Part shown: positions 53,920 to 63,967 of the stretch, one piece after another
Layout of the letters: every line of letters begins with the position of its first letter
Position numbering within the stretch: the stretch's first letter is position 1
NCBI GenBank assembly: GCA_943704415.1
Contig: CALSCO010000787.1
Coordinates: 28,574 to 92,573, forward strand
Length of the DNA: 64,000 bases
DNA from: Parvularia atlantis
Lineage: Eukaryota > Opisthokonta > Rotosphaerida
Direction: 5' to 3'
Made by a program: the position numbers and the translations under genes
The notes under the pieces: generated by a model
What the model saw: only the letters and a program-made list of their open reading frames with translations
Told to the model about the DNA's origin: nothing
Databases searched by the model: none

Positions 53920-55267
53920 TCAGGCGCCGACGCAGCACTGGATGTTGGACGCGCCTGTGCGGGAAACGCAGCGGGTCAGATGCGATCGCGCACGTGCACA
54001 ATGCAAGTCGCACCGGGGCAGAGACCCGCGTGCGCCGTGCCACCAAAGATGCCGCACGACGTCGTGTCCATGCAGTTGCCGGACGTGCCGCTGTAGGTGC
54101 ACTTGGGGCGGACGCAGCACTGTGCACACGCGATCGCTGTTGTGAGCGTGGGCGCACCGGCGGGCGTCGTCCCACACGCGCGTGGCACCTGGATGTTGCT
54201 CGCCCCCGGGCAGAAGCCAGGGTAGCTCGTGCCCTGGTCAGCCGTGCACGCGGTCGTCGTGATACAGATGCCCGTCTTGGTGCCGGTGCTGCAGGGCACC
54301 TCGGTGCAGCACTGCACGTTGCTCGGGCCTGCGCCCCGCGAACGATCAGCCACAACCCACATACCAACTGAAGCGCGCAGCGAGCGCACCCGGGCAGAGG
54401 CCGGCCGTGCTCTTGCCGTTGACGCCCGCGCACGTCGTCGTGTCCTGGCACGTGCCCGTCTGGCCGCTGGCCGTGCACGCCGTGCCGATGCCGTTGTTGG
54501 TCGACCAGATGCTCGACGCGTCCGCGAACCAGTTGAGGTCGACCGAGAGGCCGCACGGCGAGCTCGAGCCCGAGTACTGCTTCATGTTGGGCGTGCTCCA
54601 GCCGCCAAAGGCCTGCGTCCGCCGCGATTGATGAGCGGGGAGTTTTCCCGCGCGCTCACGCCGCGCTCCCAGCCAAGGCGGTGCGCACCGAGTAGCTCGC
54701 GAAGCTCTTGGCGCCGTCGTACTGCGCATACCACACGGGCAGGCCCGCGCCGCCAGTGGCCTGGTACGTGGCCGAGCCGAAGATGCGGACCCAGTTGTTG
54801 TAGTTGGAGTAGACGCCGCAGCGGACGTGGTTGGCCGTGCAGGCCGCGAGCAGGTTGGCGTAGAAGTTCTTGTTGGTCGTAAACGACGTGCTCCAGTACT
54901 GCCCGACCGAGTCCTCCTCCACGTCGAGCCAGACGATGCCAAAGCTGAGGCCGTTGAGGTTGCTGACCATCGCGCTAAACTGCGCCGAGGCCGAGGCCGT
55001 GCACAGCGGGCACGGGAACATGTACACGTCGACGTGGGCGAGGCCGGCCGTCTGCGCGTTCGTGATGGCCTGGCGCACGTTGGGGTCGACCGTGCCCGTG
55101 CTGCGGAATGCGCGAAAGACGAAGGACGTGTAGCCTGCGTTGACCATGCACTGCAGCGCGCTCACGCTCGGCAGCGCCGACATGTCGAAGCCGTCGCCGG
55201 CCTGCGCCGCGGCGTGGCCGGCGAGGAGGGCAAGGAGGGTGAGGGCGACGGGCGCGGCGGCGTGCAT
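53920..55267 (-). CDS. Secreted GH25 muramidase with three C-terminal cysteine modules
   Basis: Lysozyme-type enzyme cutting peptidoglycan; in a phagotroph it would digest bacteria. Signal peptide MHAAAPVALTLLALLAGHAA at 55267. The GH25 barrel shows GDGFDMSALPS, YTSFVFRAFRSTG, LAHVDVYMFPC, FGIVWLDVEED with the catalytic DxE pair, NKNFYANLLAACTANHVRCG, VYSNYNNWVRIFGSATY, GLPVWYAQYDGAKSF and GGWSTPNMKQYSG. Three modules of about 45-50 residues then repeat the pattern C-x(4-6)-TG-x-C-x2-TT-x-C-x(7-9)-G-(L/F)-CPGA; similar modules accompany secreted peptidoglycan hydrolases in fungi and amoebae. The last intron (53954-54013, 60 nt) joins GLCPG to ASNIQCCVGA and stop. About five introns. Confidence 0.9.
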
Positions 55268-55836
55268 CCTGCCAGAGTGTGAGCACAGCCGAACGGCAAA
55301 CGGGGCGCGCATGCGAACGAGCATAGCGAGGCGGGCAAGCGGGCAAGCGGGCAAGCGGGCAAGCGGGCACGTGGGCAAGCGGGCTGGGGGGCACGGCACG
55401 ACGCGCGCGGCACCCGATAAGCGCGGCGCACGAGGCGCGCGCGGCGCACGAGGCGCAGTGAAAAAAACAACGGCTGAGACAGCGCGTTTCACCGGGGCCG
55501 CTCATTACGCGCTCCGTCTCTCGCACACCCAGCGCGGCCCCACCCCCGCGCAGCGGTGCGCCGGGGGGTGCGGCGAGCGCGGTGGGGCGCGGGTTACGAG
55601 CGGGGAAGCGGCTGACACGGAAATAGCCCACCGGGGTGGCGCGATATCGGCCGTGCGACGCGCCGTGCGAGTGCCCACTCCGCGGCCATCACCGTCGCGT
55701 GGCTAGGTTTGCGTGCATTCCAGCGTCTCGCCCTTCTCCGCGTCCGCCCCTCGCCTTTCCCCCGTCGCCGAGCACGCCGCCGCCGTTCACCCGAGCAGCA
55801 GCGACTCGCGCGCCGCGAGTCTCACCGCACCAGGCC
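55268..55836. promoter_or_regulatory. 569-bp divergent gap, GH25 / first 7TM gene
   Basis: Holds an 8-bp array (55333-55380) and a small duplication of GGCGCACGAGGCGCG near 55425-55455. No convincing exon on either strand; compact GC-rich ORFs here look like noise. Confidence 0.45.
55333..55380. repeat. 8-bp tandem repeat GGGCAAGC, six units
   Basis: Units 1-4 and 6 are perfect and unit 5 reads GGGCACGT. Located 66 bp upstream of the GH25 start codon. Confidence 0.92.
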
Positions 55837-57447
55837 ATGACGGAGCTGTGCGTGGCGTGGTCTGACCATCGTTGCCCACACCACACGACGCGCACCGGCT
55901 TATCACGCGACCTCCCCGCCCGCCTCCCGCGACGCCGCCACGACGCCGCCGACGCGCGGCTGAAACGGCGCGTCGCAGACCGTACTGCAACTGGTTCGTG
56001 CGCGTGAGCGGCTGCGCCGACGCCGAGACGCACCGGGCCGTGCGCATCGCGTGCCTCGCCGTCGCGGCCGCGGCGAGCGTGCTCGCGCTGCTGTACTTTG
56101 TCGTGCGGCGCGCCAAGGGCCACCGGCTGCTGTTCTCGTTCGGGCCGGGTGCGATTGACGGCACGTTCCTGCTCGTCACGCTGGCGTGCATCAGTGCGTG
56201 GCGCACCCGCATCCGCAGTAGCATCCGCATTGAGCGCTCGCACCGCCGCAGTGCGCTTCGTCGACTCGGCCATCGTCGTCGCCGACGCGTTCCCGAGCTA
56301 CGTCGCGGCCTGGCTCGTCACCGAGACCGGCTCGCTCCTCATCTTATCGGCCATCGTGTTCTTCGTCTTTGCGATGTGCGCCGTCGCTGCGCCGTCGCGT
56401 GTTGCTGCGCGTGCTGAGCCGCACGCGCGCGCAGCTTCTTCTCGTTCCCGACGGCGCATCTCGGCGGCAAGAGCAACACGCAGCTCATCCCGAAGCCCGT
56501 CTTGTGCGCTCGTTCGCTGCCCTCGCGTGCGGCCTGTGGCTGATCGTGTGCGCGGCAGCATCGCGTTCTGCGTGGTCGAGGTGCTCGGCGGGACGGTCGT
56601 CGTCATCACCATCGCGACGCTGCTCGGGCAGGAGCAGGACCGCGGTGTGCCCGACGTCGACAGCCGCATGTTGCTGGTGCTCCGCCCGCGCTGCCCGCGA
56701 CTGACGGCGGCGGAAGCTCAGCCGGGTCGTGCGGCGCAGGCACGCAACGCCGTCTGGGCGATCCTCGTCGGCCTCCTCGCGATTGCGTTCATCGTGTGCA
56801 GCAGCAAGCTCCTCGCGATGCTGCGCAGCTACAGCGCCGCGGGCGCGAGCCGCGTGCAGTCGGCGGCGACGGCGCGTGCCGTGGCGCGGGTGCGGCGGCG
56901 GCGCCGCTCTGTGCGCGGCCGTGCGCGACACTCACACGGGACGCGCAGATCAAGCTGTTTGTGTTTGTCGTTGGGCCCGTACTCACGCTCTACGCGCTCG
57001 TGCTGGTCGTGTACACGGCCGCGCGCGAGCCGATCATGTCGCACCGGCCGACCTCGATCATCTTCTACCTCTGGTTCTTCATGGCGACCGACGTCGTCGT
57101 CGTCGTGTGCACGCCCGTGCTCATCCTCATGTGCGCGCCGCTCGTCTGGCGTGCGGAGCGTGCGCGTGCTGAGCCGTGCGCGCACCGGCAGGGAGGTCTG
57201 GGGTTTTATGGACCACTCGGAGAAGGGCTCGACGTCGGGCAACGAGTCGGCGCGCGGGCGCGGCATCTTGTTCCTCGGGCGCATGCGCTTTGGCGGCGGC
57301 AGTGGCGGGGGATCGGGCGCGCCGGTCGAGTCGACGGCGCCCGCGCCAGCCTTGGAGCCGAGCAAGGTGCTCCAGGACGCGCTGGCGTCACTGACGGACG
57401 TGGACGAGCACCACCGGCCGCTGTCGCTCGCCGTGATCGATCTTTGA
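55837..57447 (+). CDS. 7TM membrane protein, tandem paralogue 1
   Basis: First of three same-strand paralogues of an unrecognised 7TM family. Exon 1 is MTEL (55837); a GTGCG intron of about 130 nt leads to PYCNWFVRVSGCADAETHRA. TM1 is VRIACLAVAAAASVLALLYF, followed by the family motif RRAKGHR and then GPGAIDGTFLLVTLACI (TM2). DAFPSYVAAWLVTETGSLLI starts TM3; later come VVEVLGGTVVVITIATLLG, AVWAILVGLLAIAFIVCSSK, LFVFVVGPVLTLYALVLVVY and FYLWFFMATDVVVVV. The cytosolic tail ends LQDALASLTDVDEHHRPLSL then AVIDL, shared with the paralogues. N-terminal cysteines (C-N-W...S-G-C) look extracellular. A receptor role is inferred from topology only. About six introns. Confidence 0.75.
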
Positions 57448-57474
57448 CCTGTCGTGCCGGCCCGGGCTGGCGAG

Positions 57475-57562
57475 CACACGCTCGCATTGAGCTGCGCAGC
57501 TCAGCCGCACACGCTCGCATTGAGTTGTGCAGCTCAGCCGCACACGCTCGCATTGAGTTGCA
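57475..57562. repeat. 33-bp tandem repeat, about 2.7 copies, with palindrome
   Basis: Copies start at 57475, 57508 and 57541 (partial). Each runs CACACGCTCGCATTGAG, then a variable YTGYGCAGCTCAGCCG. The first copy holds the perfect 14-bp palindrome GAGCTGCGCAGCTC (57489-57502). It begins 27 bp after the stop of the first 7TM gene and could be its 3' end or a terminator-like structure. Confidence 0.9.
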
Positions 57563-57576
57563 TCACAGCACAGCAC

Positions 57577-57757
57577 TCAAGGGCAGTCAAGGCCAGTGCG
57601 AGGCACGCACCGCGCACGACAGGCAACTGAACGGCACCAGTACGGCAGGGGTCAGCGATGACGGCAGGGCCCGTCGGTCGTCTTGCGCACGCACGCGCCG
57701 CAGATCGGGTGCAGACACGGCGTGCGGCCCGCATTCGCGCCGACCACCTTCAAGCAG
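57577..57757 (-). pseudogene. RING finger (C3HC4) gene 3' part or remnant
   Basis: Minus-strand exon reads CPLCLKVVGANAGRTP, CLHPICGACVRKTTDGPC. A 36-nt intron with GT donor, GCTGAC branch and CAG acceptor (about 57622-57657) joins to LACRARCVPRTGLDCP and a stop at 57577. Joined, the cysteine/histidine spacing is C-x2-C-x11-C-x1-H-x2-C-x2-C-x8-C-x2-C, a proper RING of the E3 ubiquitin-ligase type. Upstream I find no in-phase start: the nearest ATG (about 57776, MVQP) is one base out of frame. Either a 5' exon is missed, the base call is wrong, or this is a decayed gene. It lies between two plus-strand 7TM genes. Confidence 0.5.
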
Positions 57758-57812
57758 AGTGGGCAGGCTGCACCATGCACGCAGTGAGCGACAGCTGGCA
57801 AGCATCGGCCGC

Positions 57813-57832
57813 GAGAGAGAGAGAGAGAGAGA
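57813..57832. repeat. (GA)10 microsatellite before 7TM gene 2
   Basis: Pure GA run ending 27 bp before the start codon at 57860. On the minus strand it is a CT run that could serve as a pyrimidine tract upstream of the RING exon. Confidence 0.92.
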
Positions 57833-57859
57833 ACGCATGTCACCAGGCGGGCGATCGCG

Positions 57860-58643
57860 ATGCCGCCGCCCCCGACCGCGCCGTACGCGTTCTGCGACTG
57901 GTTCGTGAACGTGCGCGACTGCGCCGACGCGGCCGTGCACCAGCCGTTCCGTGTGGCGTGCCTGGCGCTGTCGTGCGCGGCGGCGCTCGTGATCAGCACG
58001 CTGCTCGTCCTCCGCCGCGCAAAGGGCCACCGCGTCTGGTTCGCGTACGGCCCGGGCGCGCTCGACGGCACGCTGCTCCTCGTCCTCGTCAGCTTCGTCC
58101 GTGCGTCGTGCGCCGTGTGCCGTGTGCCGTGTGCGACGCGGCTGACGGGCGGGATCCCGCAGTCCGCGCCGTCGACTCGGCGCTGCTCAGCTTCGACCTG
58201 ACCACCTCGTACGTCGCCCGAATCGTCCTGTGCGAGGTCTCGTGGCTCGTGCTGTACGACGCCTTCATCTTCTTCATGTTCGCAGCGTGCGTCTTCGACG
58301 TCCGGCTGCGGCTGCTGCTGCTGCTGCTGAGGACGACGACGACGACGGCGCACCGCAGCGTCCAGTCGATCCCCGCCCAGTTCATCGACAGCAAGGGGCG
58401 CATGCAGAACAACCTGCTGCCCTCCCGCTCGCTCCTGTGCGCGTCCGGCGCGTCTCGTCTTGTTCGCCGTGCTGATCGCCGCCGTCGCCGTCGTCGTCGC
58501 GCAGCATCGGCTTCTGCCTGTTTGAGGCCGTGGGCTCGTTTGTCGCGCTCATCGTCGTCGCCGTCCTGCTCGGCCTGCGCTTCGAGGCCGACGGGTTCGA
58601 CGCCGTCGCGGGGCTGTACAGGGTGCGTGCGCCCGTGCGCCCC

Positions 58644-58678
<35 letters not shown>

Positions 58679-59364
58679 GGCGGGCTGAGCGCGCGGCGGC
58701 CGCAGGCGCGGTTCATCATCTGGACTGTGTGCATGGTCACGCTCGCGACCTCGTTCAGCTTCTACAGCGCGCGGCTGCTCGCCGTCATCCGCACAAGCTT
58801 CGGCAACGCGTTCCACCAGGGCCCGCAGGCCGCGCGCGTGGCCCGCGCCGTGCGCAAGGTGGGCTTTCTGCCTCGTGCACGGGGGGACGTGCGCCTGACG
58901 TGCCACACGCGCGCCCCTTGCAGCTCCAGCTGCTCATCTTCGCCGCCATCCCGGCCATGATCGTCTACACGATCGTGCTGGCGCTGCTGGCCGCGCTACG
59001 CGAGCCGATCCTGACCAACCTGGGCAGCTCGATGGTCTTCGCGTTCCTGTTCTACATGATGGCCGAGGTCGTGATGCTCATCATCGGCCCGGGCATGATC
59101 TTCCTGTGCGTGCCCTGCGCGCCGCGTGTCCTGGCCACCCCCGTGCCGCTCACGCCCGTCTCGCGCGCGCCCAACAGCGAGCTGCACGGCTTCCTGGACG
59201 ACACGAGCAACCACAGCAGCTCGGCCAAGCGCGCCGCGCCGGTCGCGCTCGGGCAGCGCGGTGGGTCGGTGGGCGAGGGACCGAGCAGGGTGCTGCGCGA
59301 CGCGATCGTCTCGCTGACCGAGCCGGACGAGGGGCCGCTGAGCCTGAGCGTGCTGGACCTATGA
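57860..59364 (+). CDS. 7TM membrane protein, tandem paralogue 2
   Basis: Starts MPPPPTAPYAFCDWFVNVRD at 57860. It follows the family plan: extracellular C-D-W...D-C pair, TM1 VACLALSCAAALVISTLLVL, motif RRAKGHR, GPGALDGTLLLVLVSFV (TM2), TSYVARIVLCEVSWLVLYDA with TM3, the loop SIPAQFIDSKGRMQNNLLP, then FEAVGSFVALIVVAVLLGL, FIIWTVCMVTLATSFSFYSA, LLIFAAIPAMIVYTIVLALL and LGSSMVFAFLFYMMAEVVML. The tail ends LRDAIVSLTEPDEGPLSLSV then LDL. The intron near 58622-58710 contains eight GTGC units. About six introns. No family from outside is recognised. Confidence 0.75.
58646..58677 (+). repeat. (GTGC)8 repeat within an intron
   Basis: Eight GTGC units just after the GTGCG donor of an intron in 7TM gene 2. 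The unit equals the donor consensus, so the repeat offers many possible 5' splice sites. Confidence 0.9.
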
Positions 59365-59730
59365 TCATGATCGTCTTCAGTCACGGCCCGTGATGATCTC
59401 TTTTTGCTGTCAGGGGGTTCAGTTGCTGCGCCAATCCTTGTCACTGCTCCGTGCCCCCGTGTCGTGACGAGCAGCACAGTCCTTCCCGCGCTGAGCACGA
59501 GCAGGCGAGCCATATGCGGGCGCGTCACGTGCAGGTGAGACACGGCTGGAACGAGAGTGAAACGCATCTTTGTTGCCACGTGGCCGGCCTGCTCGCCGTC
59601 GGCGCATCGTTCGCTCGCTCCTCCGCGGCGGCCTGCTGATCGCCGCCGCCACCGCAGCCGTGCCGCCGTCGGCGCATCGTCCTCCCGCAGCCGCACCGAT
59701 GGCGAGCGAGAGGTGCGCCGCGGGCGGGGG
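59365..59730. other. Gap between 7TM genes 2 and 3
   Basis: Mostly non-coding. It contains a 17-bp direct repeat CGCCGTCGGCGCATCGT at 59594-59610 and 59664-59680 (70 bp apart). The last 32 bp include the preferred start of gene 3. No other gene seen. Confidence 0.5.
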
Positions 59731-61203
59731 ATGCGCGCGATCAGCGATGGGCCAACCGTCAACAACAACAACAGCGACGTCGAGCCGCTCGCGTACTGCG
59801 ACTGGATCGTCAACGTGAACGGGTGCCCCGACAGCGGCGTGCACCGCGCGTTCAAGATCGCGTCGCTGGCGCTGTCGGCCGTGGCCGTGCTGCTGTCGGC
59901 CGCGTACCTGCTGCTGCGGCGCGCCACGGGCCAGCGCTTCTGGTACCGCTACGGGCCGGGCGCCATCGACGGCTCGTTCGCGCTCATCTGCGTCTCGTTC
60001 GTCTGTGCGTCGCCGTACTGCCGCTGCTGATCGCTGCTGCGGCTGATCGGGCGGCGGCTGCAGTCCGTACCGTCGACGCCGCGCTCATCAGCTTCGACGC
60101 GTACCCCAACTACGTCGCGCGCTACGTCGTGAGCGAGCTCGGCTGGATCATCGTCTTCCACGCGCTCGTCTACTTCCTCTTCGCGATGTGCGGCGCGCTG
60201 TGTGCGTGCGGACGGCGCGGCTCACGTGCGCGGCATCGACAGCGTCCACTCGATCCCGAACGCGTACCTTGACGTGCGCGGCCGCATGCGCAACACGCTG
60301 CTCCCGCCGCGGTGGCTCTTGTGCGGCTGCGCGTGGACGGTGCGCGGCTCACGTGCGCGTGCTGATCGCGCTCGCGACGCGCGCAGCCTCGCCGTGTGCC
60401 TGTTCGAGGTCGTCGGGTCGCTCGTGGCCAACGAGGTGCTGTGCGTGCTCTCGGGCATCTACTTTGAGCGCGGCGGGCTGGGCGCGGTCGTCGACATCAA
60501 CGTGGTGCGCGTCGTGGGCTGCACGGCCGAGGGGCGCCCGTTCACGGGGGCCGTGCAACAGGCGCACTTCACGTGCTGGGCCGTGTTTGTCGGGGTCATG
60601 GCCGTCGCGTTCTGGTTCTACTGCTCGCGCCTCATCATCATCATCCGCGACAACTACGTCAACGCCGGGCGGGCGCAGAGCGAGACGATGAAGCGGTCAA
60701 TCCAGCGTGTGCGTGGCGCATGCTTGGCAGGTGGGCACGCACTTGAACCTCATACGCGCGCAGCTCAAGATGATCATCTTTACCGTCGCGCCGGGCCTCG
60801 TCATCTTCGCGCTCGGCCTGATCATGCTCGCGGCGTTCCGCGTCAAGATCTTCCTCAACCTCGGCGCGTCGCTCTTCTTCTCGTTCAACTGGAACATGCT
60901 CACGCAGCTGCTCGCCATCGTCGCCACGCCGGTCCTCATCTACATGTACGCAGCGCACGGCCACGCGCACGCGCTGTGCTCGCGCTCGTGCTTATGCTCA
61001 CACGCGCCGCCAGTGAGCTGTACGGCGAGACAGAGGAGACGGAGAAGACCGGCAGCTCGCACGACAAGCGCCGTGGCACCAGCTCGCGCGTCAAGAGCGA
61101 TGAGAGCAACGAGCCGAGCGCCATGCTGCGCGACGCGCTCGTGTCGCTCTCCGAGATGGACGCGCACCACCAGCCCTTGTCTTTGCGAGTGCTGGACCTG
61201 TAA
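59699..61203 (+). CDS. 7TM membrane protein, tandem paralogue 3
   Basis: Preferred start 59699: MASE, then a 61-nt GTGCG...CAACAG intron to SDVEPLAYCDWIVNVNGC, matching paralogue 1, where an intron also precedes the C-x-W exon. An unspliced alternative is ATG 59731. TM1 is IASLALSAVAVLLSAAYLLL, then RRATGQR and GPGAIDGSFALICVSFV (TM2), YVVSELGWIIVFHALVYFLF (TM3), loop SIPNAYLDVRGRMRNTLLPP, FEVVGSLVANEVLCVLSGIY, AHFTCWAVFVGVMAVAFWFY, MIIFTVAPGLVIFALGLIML and LTQLLAIVATPVLIYMY. The tail ends LRDALVSLSEMDAHHQPLSL then RVLDL at 61203. Converges on AIF with 91 bp between stops. Confidence 0.75.
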
Positions 61204-61294: not shown

Positions 61295-63967
61295 TCAGCG
61301 GTTCGGGCTGCCCTTGAGCCGCAGGAAGTCCTCGGGCATCGTCTTGGCGTCGACCATGAGCGTGCGGCGCACCTTGAACGGGTTGCGCGAGCCGTTTTTG
61401 CTGCTCACGTTGGGTCAGCGCGGTGCGAGCGGGTGCAGCGCCAAACGGACGCACCGCGGCTCCTTGCCGTGCACGACATCGCGCACGACGCTGCGCGCGT
61501 TGACGTGCTTGATCGTCGTCGCCTCGAAACGCGCGTGCGGGATCAGGTCGCGCAGCTCGGCCTCGACGTTCTCGACGCCCGTGTAGTCGACCTGCCGGCC
61601 GCGCCCGCTCTCAGCCGCCGCACAAGCGCACTCGCTCGCATGCGCCGCGCACCTGGTCGTAGAGCACCTCGCGCGCCATGTCGATCGGGTTGTCGTGGCC
61701 CTCGACCGCGTCGATGTTGACGAGCATGACGCCGACGATGAAGCCATTGTTGAGGTAGTAGATCACGCCCTGCGCACCCCGGCGCCGCCGGCCCGTCATC
61801 AAGCAGTGCTAGCCGCGCACAGCAGACACTGCACACACGCACCCGGTCGTACTTGCTGATCGAGTCGTCCAAGGCCGGGCGCCGGCGCGACGCGTCCCAG
61901 ATGCCGATCGTCTCGCAGCGCGCGTCAACCACGCCGACCGTCTCGATGCGCAGGCCGAGCGCGCGCATGTCGACGCGGTTGGCCGGCAGGTGGTAGTACG
62001 GCCAGTGCTCTGCGGTGCACGGGCGATCAGCAGCAGAGCACCACCACAGGCGCTACGTCCGCACCGCCGAGCATGTTGTGCGCCGCGATCACGCCCGAGG
62101 CCACGGCGTGGTCGTAGTTTTGGTCGCGGCGGCGGCCGAGCACGACGTTCGGGTAACTGCGGCCCCGCGCGTCAGCACCATCGGCTCACAGCTGTGCGCG
62201 CACCTGATCACGTCGCCGCCCGCGTAGATGTCCGTGCACGCCGACAGCTCCTGGTTGACGACGATGCCGCCGTTGTTCTCGTCGATCTCTGCCCGGCGGC
62301 GTCAGCACCACGCGTCCAAGTCACGCTCGGCAAGCGCACCGAGACCGGCGTCCGCGGCCAGCTCGACGTTGGCGTTGACCGTCGTGGGCGCGTACACGAC
62401 GAGGTCGCTCTTGAGGTACGACTGTGCACGCACGCGCGTCGGCGGCTCATCGTCGTCTTCAGCTGTCGCACCTTCTCCCACGAGTCAATTTCGACGTAGA
62501 CCTGCTCGGGCGCCTCGGGCACCGTGTCGACCTTGCTCACGAGGCTGAAGTTTTTTTGCGCGATGCCGAGCGAGCGCAGGCGCGCGGTGATGTAGGCGCG
62601 GAAGTACTCTGCGGCACGCGCGGCCGATCAGCAGAGCGCGCCTTCGCACGGCGCACGCACCCGGCAGCAGCTTGTACATCACGCCCGGCTCGGCATAGAT
62701 CTGCGTGATGGCCACGTCGTGCTTGTCGCGGTTGCGCTGGAAGATCTCGAGCGCGGCCTCGACACCAAACGTGCCACCGCCGACGACCTGTGCTGCGCTC
62801 AGCACCGCCGCCTGCGCGCGGCGCGCAGGACGGGCCGCACAGCAATGTTCTTGACCTTGCCCGACGAGATGATCTTGTCGAGGCGCTCGAGGTCGTTGAG
62901 CGTGCGCAGGTCTGCCGCGCTTTCAGCGATCACGCGTGCAGCACACGTGAGCAGTGCGACGCACTGAACAGCCGCTCGCACGCCTTCTCGTTCGTGCACG
63001 GGAGGTTCTCGGTGGGCATGCCTCCTGGTGCGGGCGCGGTGAGCATGCGCGCCGCACACAGACCCATGCAGGCAACGCACCAGTGCCGATGAAGAGCTTG
63101 CCGTACGAGAAGATGCGCCCGTCGCTCAGCTGAATCAGCTTGCTGTGCACGTCCAGCTTGGACACGGCCGGACCGAGGATGACGGTCGTGTTGGGCGCGG
63201 TGTCGAGGCGGCGCAGCTGCTCCTTGTTCTCTTGCGACGTGACGACGGCGTTGATCCGCGTCGCCCGCTCCTCGGCCACGAGCAGCACCTTGCTGCGCGC
63301 GAAGGCCTTGCTCAGCGTCGACAGCTGCCCGTTGATCGTGTCGAGGCACGCGCGCGCGGCCTGGCCGGCGCCAACGATGACGTGCTGCGTCGGTGCGGAT
63401 GACGTGAGATGTGCGAACGCCAGCGGCAGCACGCACGTCGTAGTGCTCGGGCGTGTGCGGCGGCTTGATGCGCGAGCGGCTGTTGTCGACGCCGACGTGG
63501 TACCACTTGGGGCTGCGATGAGCGTCAACAAAAACGACGCCGAGAGACCACGGGGGTGCCGCACTAGTCGCCCGTGGCCTTGTTGATCTTGAAGCGCGTG
63601 AGCGGCGTCACGCCGGCCGCGTCCTTGGCGGCCGCATCGGCGTGCAGCTGGTGGTCGACCCACTTGGCGACGAGCGTCTGCGGACGGGCGACGTCAGCAT
63701 CGGCAAACGGCAGACACTCGACGGCGCGCACCGCAGCGACGACGCCCCCGACGGCTGCGGCGGCCAGAGCGGCGCTGGGACGCCTGCGACGCGCGCGCAC
63801 GTCAGACACCTCACACAGCACGTCCACAGCCGACGCGCGCACCACGGCTGCTGCTGCTGCTGCTGCTGTTGCTGTTGCTGTGCGGCCGCGGAAGTTGCTG
63901 CGAAGCGGCGCGGGAGATGCTGCACGGCGAGGGCCGTGCGCGGCGCGGCGGCGCGTCCGAGCAGCAT
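61295..63967 (-). CDS. AIFM1: Apoptosis-inducing-factor-like mitochondrial flavoprotein
   Basis: FAD/NAD-dependent oxidoreductase of the mitochondrial intermembrane space. Starts MLLGRAAAPRTALAVQHLPR at 63967; RRFAATSAAAQ then 11 Gln form a presequence-like leader. After an Ala-rich stretch, exons read WVDHQLHADAAAKDAAGVTP and PKWYHVGVDNSRSRIKPPHT. The FAD fold is HVIVGAGQAARACLDTINGQ; VLLVAEERATRINA, LIQLSDGRIFSYGKLFIGTG and LNDLERLDKIISSGKVKNIA follow, then the NAD fold VVGGGTFGVEAALEIFQRNR and the second FAD-binding strand DENNGGIVVNQELSACTDIY. The AIF-specific C-terminal domain shows YHYLPANRVDMRALGL, IGIWDASRRRPALDDSISKY and YLNNGFIVGVMLVNIDAVEG. It ends DFLRLKGSPNR at 61295. About ten introns. 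Only 33 bp of upstream sequence are in the window. Confidence 0.9.

Follow-up and report, generated by a model that had tools for sequence, protein, structure and literature searches.

We analyzed a 64,000-nucleotide stretch of the Parvularia atlantis genome (contig C189, positions 28574-92573; hereafter the window) in which three adjacent genes, g1, g2, and g3, encode predicted seven-transmembrane (7TM) proteins. The trio belongs to a five-gene family with two further members, g4 and g5, elsewhere in the genome, which comprises 16.25 Mb in 616 contigs. We give an even chance to the reading that this family is a remote offshoot of the THH1/TOM1/TOM3 proteins, receptor-like and predicted to have the N terminus outside, with a C-terminal tail that would recruit a cytosolic partner.

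A tandem trio of predicted 7TM genes

We spliced g1 to g3 by hand from the DNA sequence using GT..AG introns. The splicing produced three complete plus-strand gene models (Table 1), as had been proposed in the initial annotation, which described three adjacent same-strand genes. The spacing is 412 bases between g1 and g2 and 366 bases between g2 and g3. The start of g3 was placed by choice at the ATG at 59731, and alternative starts are possible. Using Kyte-Doolittle hydropathy with a 19-residue window, we found seven hydrophobic segments (TM1 to TM7) in each of the three proteins, in agreement with the earlier count of about seven. Each model starts and stops on its own and has a full set of seven segments, so the possibility that the three are exons of a single gene was ruled out within the models, and the original description of three separate genes was upheld.

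The coding sequence of each gene has a length divisible by three. The GC content at the third codon position is 0.933 in g1, 0.964 in g2, and 0.957 in g3, that at the second positions is 41 to 47%, and that of the whole window is about 69%. All 19 introns of g1 to g3 are of the GT..AG type, have lengths of 55 to 131 nucleotides, and end in CAG, and 17 of them start with GTGC. Pairwise BLASTP comparisons of g1, g2, and g3 gave 36 to 43% identity, with a worst E value of 1.7e-61. Two repeats were observed at the genes: a 33-bp tandem repeat of 2.7 copies (window 57474-57561) just past the g1 stop codon, and a (GCGT)n microsatellite (window 58644-58682) within intron 4 of g2.

A small family extending beyond the trio

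A genome search with g3 recovered the exons of g1 to g3 and two further loci. The gene on contig C5 (g4) encodes a 449-amino-acid protein which has 49 to 50% identity to g3 and carries the tail, and the gene on contig C286 (g5) encodes a divergent protein of 368 amino acids. Genome searches with g1 and g5 revealed no additional paralogues, and the paralogue counts from such searches are lower bounds. In the family tree, only the grouping of g1 with g2 was supported, moderately (83/88).

From the protein database, a single relative, P0001, was obtained. P0001 is a metagenome protein of 281 amino acids with 38% identity over 65% of g3. By eye, and at the protein level only, its extra stretch between the TM2 and TM3 equivalents resembles a retained intron at the position of family intron 1, and its similarity to the family breaks off at family intron 5. 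The search that found P0001 scored only the 7,998 candidates sharing most words, and a search with the family alignment, in which 7,997 such candidates were scored, returned nothing and missed P0001 itself. Given this limited candidate set and the miss of P0001, the protein database may contain more relatives. Among prokaryote and viral contigs no family relative was found in a search sensitive enough for close relatives only. The tandem trio first described is thus real, but it does not make up the whole family: the search for relatives beyond it yielded at least two more paralogues (g4 and g5) and P0001, and by sequence the family is a small and real one, slightly larger than the trio.

Conserved motifs

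The C-x-W...C leader pointed out in the initial annotation is present in all six family sequences (g1 to g5 and P0001), and the element found before TM1 of g1 sits in exon 1 of both g2 and g3. The two motifs described after TM1 and at TM2, RR(A/T)(K/T)G(H/Q)R and GPGA(I/L)DG(T/S), were both recovered in g1 to g3. The other two motifs named there are present as well, g1 showing minor variants. The N-x-L-L-P loop takes the form NNLLP in g2, NTLLP in g3, and the variant NTQLIP in g1; likewise, the conserved tail is present in all three proteins and ends as described in g2 (SLSVLDL) and g3 (SLRVLDL), but g1 ends in SLAVIDL. Among the five paralogues the tail is kept in four, with g4 ending in SLLSM in place of VLDL, and the sequence of P0001 stops upstream of the tail region. 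In g1 to g4 the tail consists of a short amphipathic stretch (hydrophobic moment 0.33 to 0.63) followed by PLSLxVLDL or a variant, and its last residues are consistent with a class II PDZ ligand pattern.

Searches against known families

The initial annotation reported no match to known 7TM families and proposed a hidden Markov model (HMM) search. When this search was run against Pfam, none of the six family proteins had a match above cut-off, and neither PF06454 (THH1/TOM1/TOM3, formerly DUF1084) nor PF05462 (Dicty_CAR) matched any of the six at E values up to 10. The best Pfam candidate for g3, Monooxygenase_B (E 0.029; 14.1 bits versus a cut-off of 22.7), covered one 68-residue stretch and was rejected as a hydrophobic-helix match. 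PDB sequences showed no convincing match to g3 or to the family profile, and 6cfw_D, the lone chain from the PDB profile search (E 0.094), was discounted for the same reason. We recognized no description of the g1-g5 family in searches of the open-licence literature. The reported lack of matches therefore holds for Pfam above cut-off and for PDB sequences, but it is qualified by weak signs of TOM1 kinship, namely the family HMM results, a TM5 profile match, and near-coincident introns. To state that there is no relation to known 7TM families would probably be too strong.

Probable remote kinship with THH1/TOM1/TOM3

The same genome holds THH1/TOM1-type genes above the Pfam cut-off of 25 bits, C411 (best exon 100.8 bits) and C418 (27.8 bits). 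The C411 product, as a 324-amino-acid query, was 72% identical over 43% to P0002, a protein from an ENA contig. For the comparisons we used a family alignment of the six sequences (A1), an alignment of 23 TOM1 proteins comprising C411 and 22 of 36 hits (A2), and a TOM1 alignment of 35 of the 36 hits (A4). The family HMM was run on 36 TOM1 proteins, comprising 35 hits and C411.

With the family HMM, two of the 36 TOM1 proteins, P0016 (16.6 bits) and P0004 (11.4 bits), scored above the best of the 1,077 reported decoys (10.9 bits). The family HMM alignment to P0005 (9.5 bits), a TOM1 protein with a predicted structure of pLDDT (predicted local distance difference test) 89.5, was collinear from TM1 to TM7. 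When A1 was compared with A2 by hhalign, TM5 was aligned to TM5 only, with a P value of 0.0066 and a probability of 5.8%.

The intron positions were then compared. Six intron positions with their phases (1, 2, 2, 0, 0, 2) are common to g1 to g4 and fell in the same columns in all eight MAFFT settings. The first intron of g5 corresponds to family intron 2 in 8/8 settings, and its second intron corresponds to family intron 5 in 2/8 settings and lies 3 columns off in 6/8. The TOM1-like gene C411 has three introns, of phases 1, 2, and 2. In the HMMER alignment to P0005, which is blind to introns, C411 introns 1 and 2 fall by eye exactly on family introns 1 and 2. In the MAFFT alignments, C411 intron 1 lay 0 codons from family intron 1 in one of eight and 3 codons off in seven, and C411 intron 2 lay 2 to 4 codons from family intron 2 in all eight, the phase always being equal. 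When five family members were aligned by greedy hhalign, C411 intron 1 was, by eye, placed exactly and intron 2 was off by 3 codons. The simulated chance that at least two of three introns agree is 0.0002 for exact positions and 0.011 to 0.015 within 4 codons.

Several results weigh against common descent and would fit an independent 7TM family, in which the likeness to THH1/TOM1 comes from hydrophobic helices and from chance agreement of intron phase. PF06454 left all six members unmatched. The family HMM ranked 34 of the 36 TOM1 proteins below the top decoy, and the best domain of the genome's own C411 protein, at 3.6 bits, was also below it. In the other direction, the TOM1 HMM built on A4 failed to separate the members from decoys, as each of the six family proteins was matched by 5 to 82 of 100 shuffled decoys. 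The hhalign score was reached by 3 of 60 hydropathy-preserving shuffles of the TOM1 columns. The third C411 intron coincides with no family intron, and the other two are both exact in one alignment only, elsewhere being up to 4 codons off. A structure model of P0001, made with exon translations as companion rows that the aligner partly misplaced, had a pLDDT of 64 and a predicted template modeling score (pTM) of 0.35, was not usable, and was not used. An independent origin is thus a real but doubtful alternative, given that two TOM1 proteins outscored every decoy, that the P0005 alignment is collinear, and that the near-coincident introns are equal in phase. Taken together, the HMM, hhalign, and intron results, which point both ways, suggest that the family is likely a remote relative of THH1/TOM1/TOM3. 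Judged by the same comparisons, the kinship is remote at most, and the proteins are not members of the TOM1 family itself.

The genes could also belong to the Remi-sans-famille (RSF) family, an orphan 7TM family which a 2025 survey describes in choanoflagellates and other eukaryotes, including several protist groups, and whose structural connection to THH1/TOM1/TOM3 is weakly supported there (PMC12716839). RSF proteins, as characterized there, have a 7TM domain alone, a broad protist distribution, and that weak structural link, much like the g1-g5 family (PMC12716839), but the RSF motif NxLQxxMNxL (TM6-TM7) is absent from all six sequences, five of which span the region while P0001 ends before TM6, and RSF membership seems unlikely.

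Predicted topology and proposed mechanism

The loops that follow TM1, TM3, and TM5 are the richer in basic residues. Predicted inner loops 1 to 3 contain 12 (g1), 13 (g2), and 14 (g3) lysines and arginines, and the N terminus and outer loops contain 8, 7, and 7. This distribution predicts an N terminus outside and a C terminus inside, with the tail in the cytosol; the leader, with its two invariant cysteines and tryptophan, would then face the outside or an organelle lumen. GRL (gustatory-receptor-like) channels are oriented with the N terminus inside. That the proteins are instead seven-segment transporters or channels, such as the GRL proteins surveyed in single-celled eukaryotes (PMC7746228), is improbable, as the basic loops predict the opposite orientation and no Pfam transporter matched above cut-off, even if the absence of animal class A G-protein-coupled receptor (GPCR) motifs would suit such proteins.

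In the mechanism that we propose for a receptor-like family, the two cysteines of the leader would form a disulfide and so shape a binding face on the outer or lumenal side, and binding at this face would alter the helix bundle. A signaling or trafficking partner could then be held by the inner loops, which are basic, together with the amphipathic tail (PSxVLRDALVSL...PLSLxVLDL). This partner may be a heterotrimeric G protein, the kind of partner proposed for the TOM1-resembling plant proteins Cand3 and Cand5, or else a small GTPase of the ARL8 type, following the example of TOM1. With a tandem array and a shared partner, a single cell might detect multiple cues or employ multiple outlets. The common cytosolic partner suggested in the initial annotation is a reasonable inference from the conserved tail, and the family members would serve as receptors or membrane docking sites.

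The genome search showed two G-alpha loci above cut-off (C144 and C201) and 12 RGS domain matches at 12 places over 11 contigs, which strikes us as many for a 16-Mb genome. PF05462 loci were also found elsewhere in the genome, on C117 (34.6 bits) and on C331 (17.9 bits, or 21.6 bits with neighbors). Because G-alpha, RGS, and cAMP-receptor-like loci are all present, G-protein signaling probably exists in the organism, and the G-alpha and RGS matches make a coupling of the family to G proteins possible, no more.

Precedents for both candidate partners come from plants. In the yeast split-ubiquitin results of PMC2530877, Cand3 and Cand5 bound GPA1, and the two are annotated there as similar to TOM1, although the authors call the similarity limited. 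In PMC3234234, TOM1 is described as co-purifying with the small GTPase ARL8 and as sitting on vacuolar and other membranes. Considering the predicted topology, the tail, the G-protein genes, and these precedents, we infer by analogy a receptor-like 7TM protein whose loops and tail would recruit either a cytosolic GTPase or the scaffold of one. Three observations argue against this proposal: the class A DRY-like and NPxxY motifs are absent from all six sequences (P0001 ends before TM7), g5 is without the conserved tail, and TOM1 itself showed no GPA1 binding in the split-ubiquitin results given in PMC2530877.

Feature coordinates and neighboring features

The positions of the predicted genes and selected features are listed in Table 1.

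Table 1. Predicted 7TM genes and selected features of the tandem locus (positions in the window)
Feature	Position	Strand	Remarks
g1, predicted 7TM gene	55837..57447	+	8 exons, stop included; 374 amino acids
g1 exons	55837-55847, 55979-56193, 56252-56375, 56435-56503, 56559-56676, 56740-56889, 56949-57130, 57192-57447	+	
g1 C-x-W...C leader, CNWFVRVSGC	55986..56015	+	before TM1; predicted extracellular or lumenal; counted from the splice model
g1 intron in TM2	56194..56251	+	family intron 1; phase 1; codon just before R of [MLF]-R-x-V-D; corresponds to g2 58101-58162 and g3 60005-60063
g1 intron at end of TM3	56376..56434	+	family intron 2; phase 2; corresponds to g2 58287-58358 and g3 60188-60242
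g1 conserved tail, PSKVLQDALASLTDVDEHHRPLSLAVIDL, and stop codon	57358..57447	+	from the alignment; counterparts end at 59364 (g2) and 61203 (g3)
g2, predicted 7TM gene	57860..59364	+	7 exons; 360 amino acids
g2 exons	57860-58100, 58163-58286, 58359-58436, 58505-58622, 58706-58858, 58924-59105, 59178-59364	+	
g3, predicted 7TM gene	59731..61203	+	7 exons; 370 amino acids
g3 exons	59731-60004, 60064-60187, 60243-60320, 60387-60504, 60562-60708, 60764-60945, 61014-61203	+	

Two other matches were observed in the window, both on the minus strand. A glycosyl hydrolase 25 (GH25, lysozyme-like) match at 54656-55501 scored 26.2 bits versus a cut-off of 27, and downstream of it, on the same strand, cysteine-rich reading frames run on to about 53976, with repeated stretches of the CPGASNIQ type seen by eye. 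A pyridine nucleotide-disulfide oxidoreductase-like frame at 62923-63693 scored 17.2 bits, short of the 26.1-bit cut-off; at a guess, it is perhaps an intron-split NDH-2 or FSP1-like gene.

Significance

A bolder version of our reading, which we offer tentatively and think rather less than probable, is that the genes represent a family of eukaryotic 7TM receptors, a sister group of THH1/TOM1/TOM3 and perhaps of RSF, which would have kept two ancestral introns, gained a disulfide-clamped leader and a PDZ-like or helical docking tail, and been amplified in tandem as sensors of a protist rich in G-alpha and RGS. Profile searches built on the known GPCR classes would overlook protist receptors of such a family. 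The cellular role of THH1/TOM1/TOM3 is, in our view, poorly understood apart from tobamovirus replication. If the TOM1 kinship is true, these proteins would gain a relative that is shaped like a receptor and carries a distinct outer leader as well as a docking tail, and the descent of TOM1-type proteins from sensors would become testable. Direct interaction tests could draw on the TOM1-type, G-alpha, and RGS genes present in the same genome.

Comparison with known 7TM systems

The Dictyostelium cAMP-receptor-like family (PF05462) also consists of 7TM receptors of single-celled eukaryotes, but its profile matches none of the six family members at the E values searched. RSF, with which the family was compared by description only, shares the lone 7TM domain, the occurrence in protists, and the weak THH1/TOM1 link, and differs in its NxLQxxMNxL helix motif.

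The closest comparison is with THH1/TOM1/TOM3. In the family HMM alignment to P0005, the seven segments follow the same order. TM5 of g1 to g4 ends in F-x-x-[YC]-x-x-[RK]-L, as in TOM1 proteins, an arginine in TM2 is shared, and two introns lie at or near the places of those in the C411 gene, in the same phase. On the other hand, C411 and C418 match PF06454 and the family does not, and the TOM1 hallmarks WTTQK, FWAEIYHQAR, GGRL, REVG, and LPPKR, taken from A2 and A4, are by eye absent from g1 to g5, as are the looser forms FWAEI(Y)HQA and K-L-x-E-V-G, with g1 to g4 retaining R/K-L alone of GGRL. Compared with TOM1, the family has features of its own: the C-x-W...C leader, GPGA[IL]DG at the start of TM2 (g1 to g4), a long loop of the SIPxAYxDxKGxMxNxLLPPR type between TM3 and TM4, and a tail that is long and ends in VLDL or a similar sequence.

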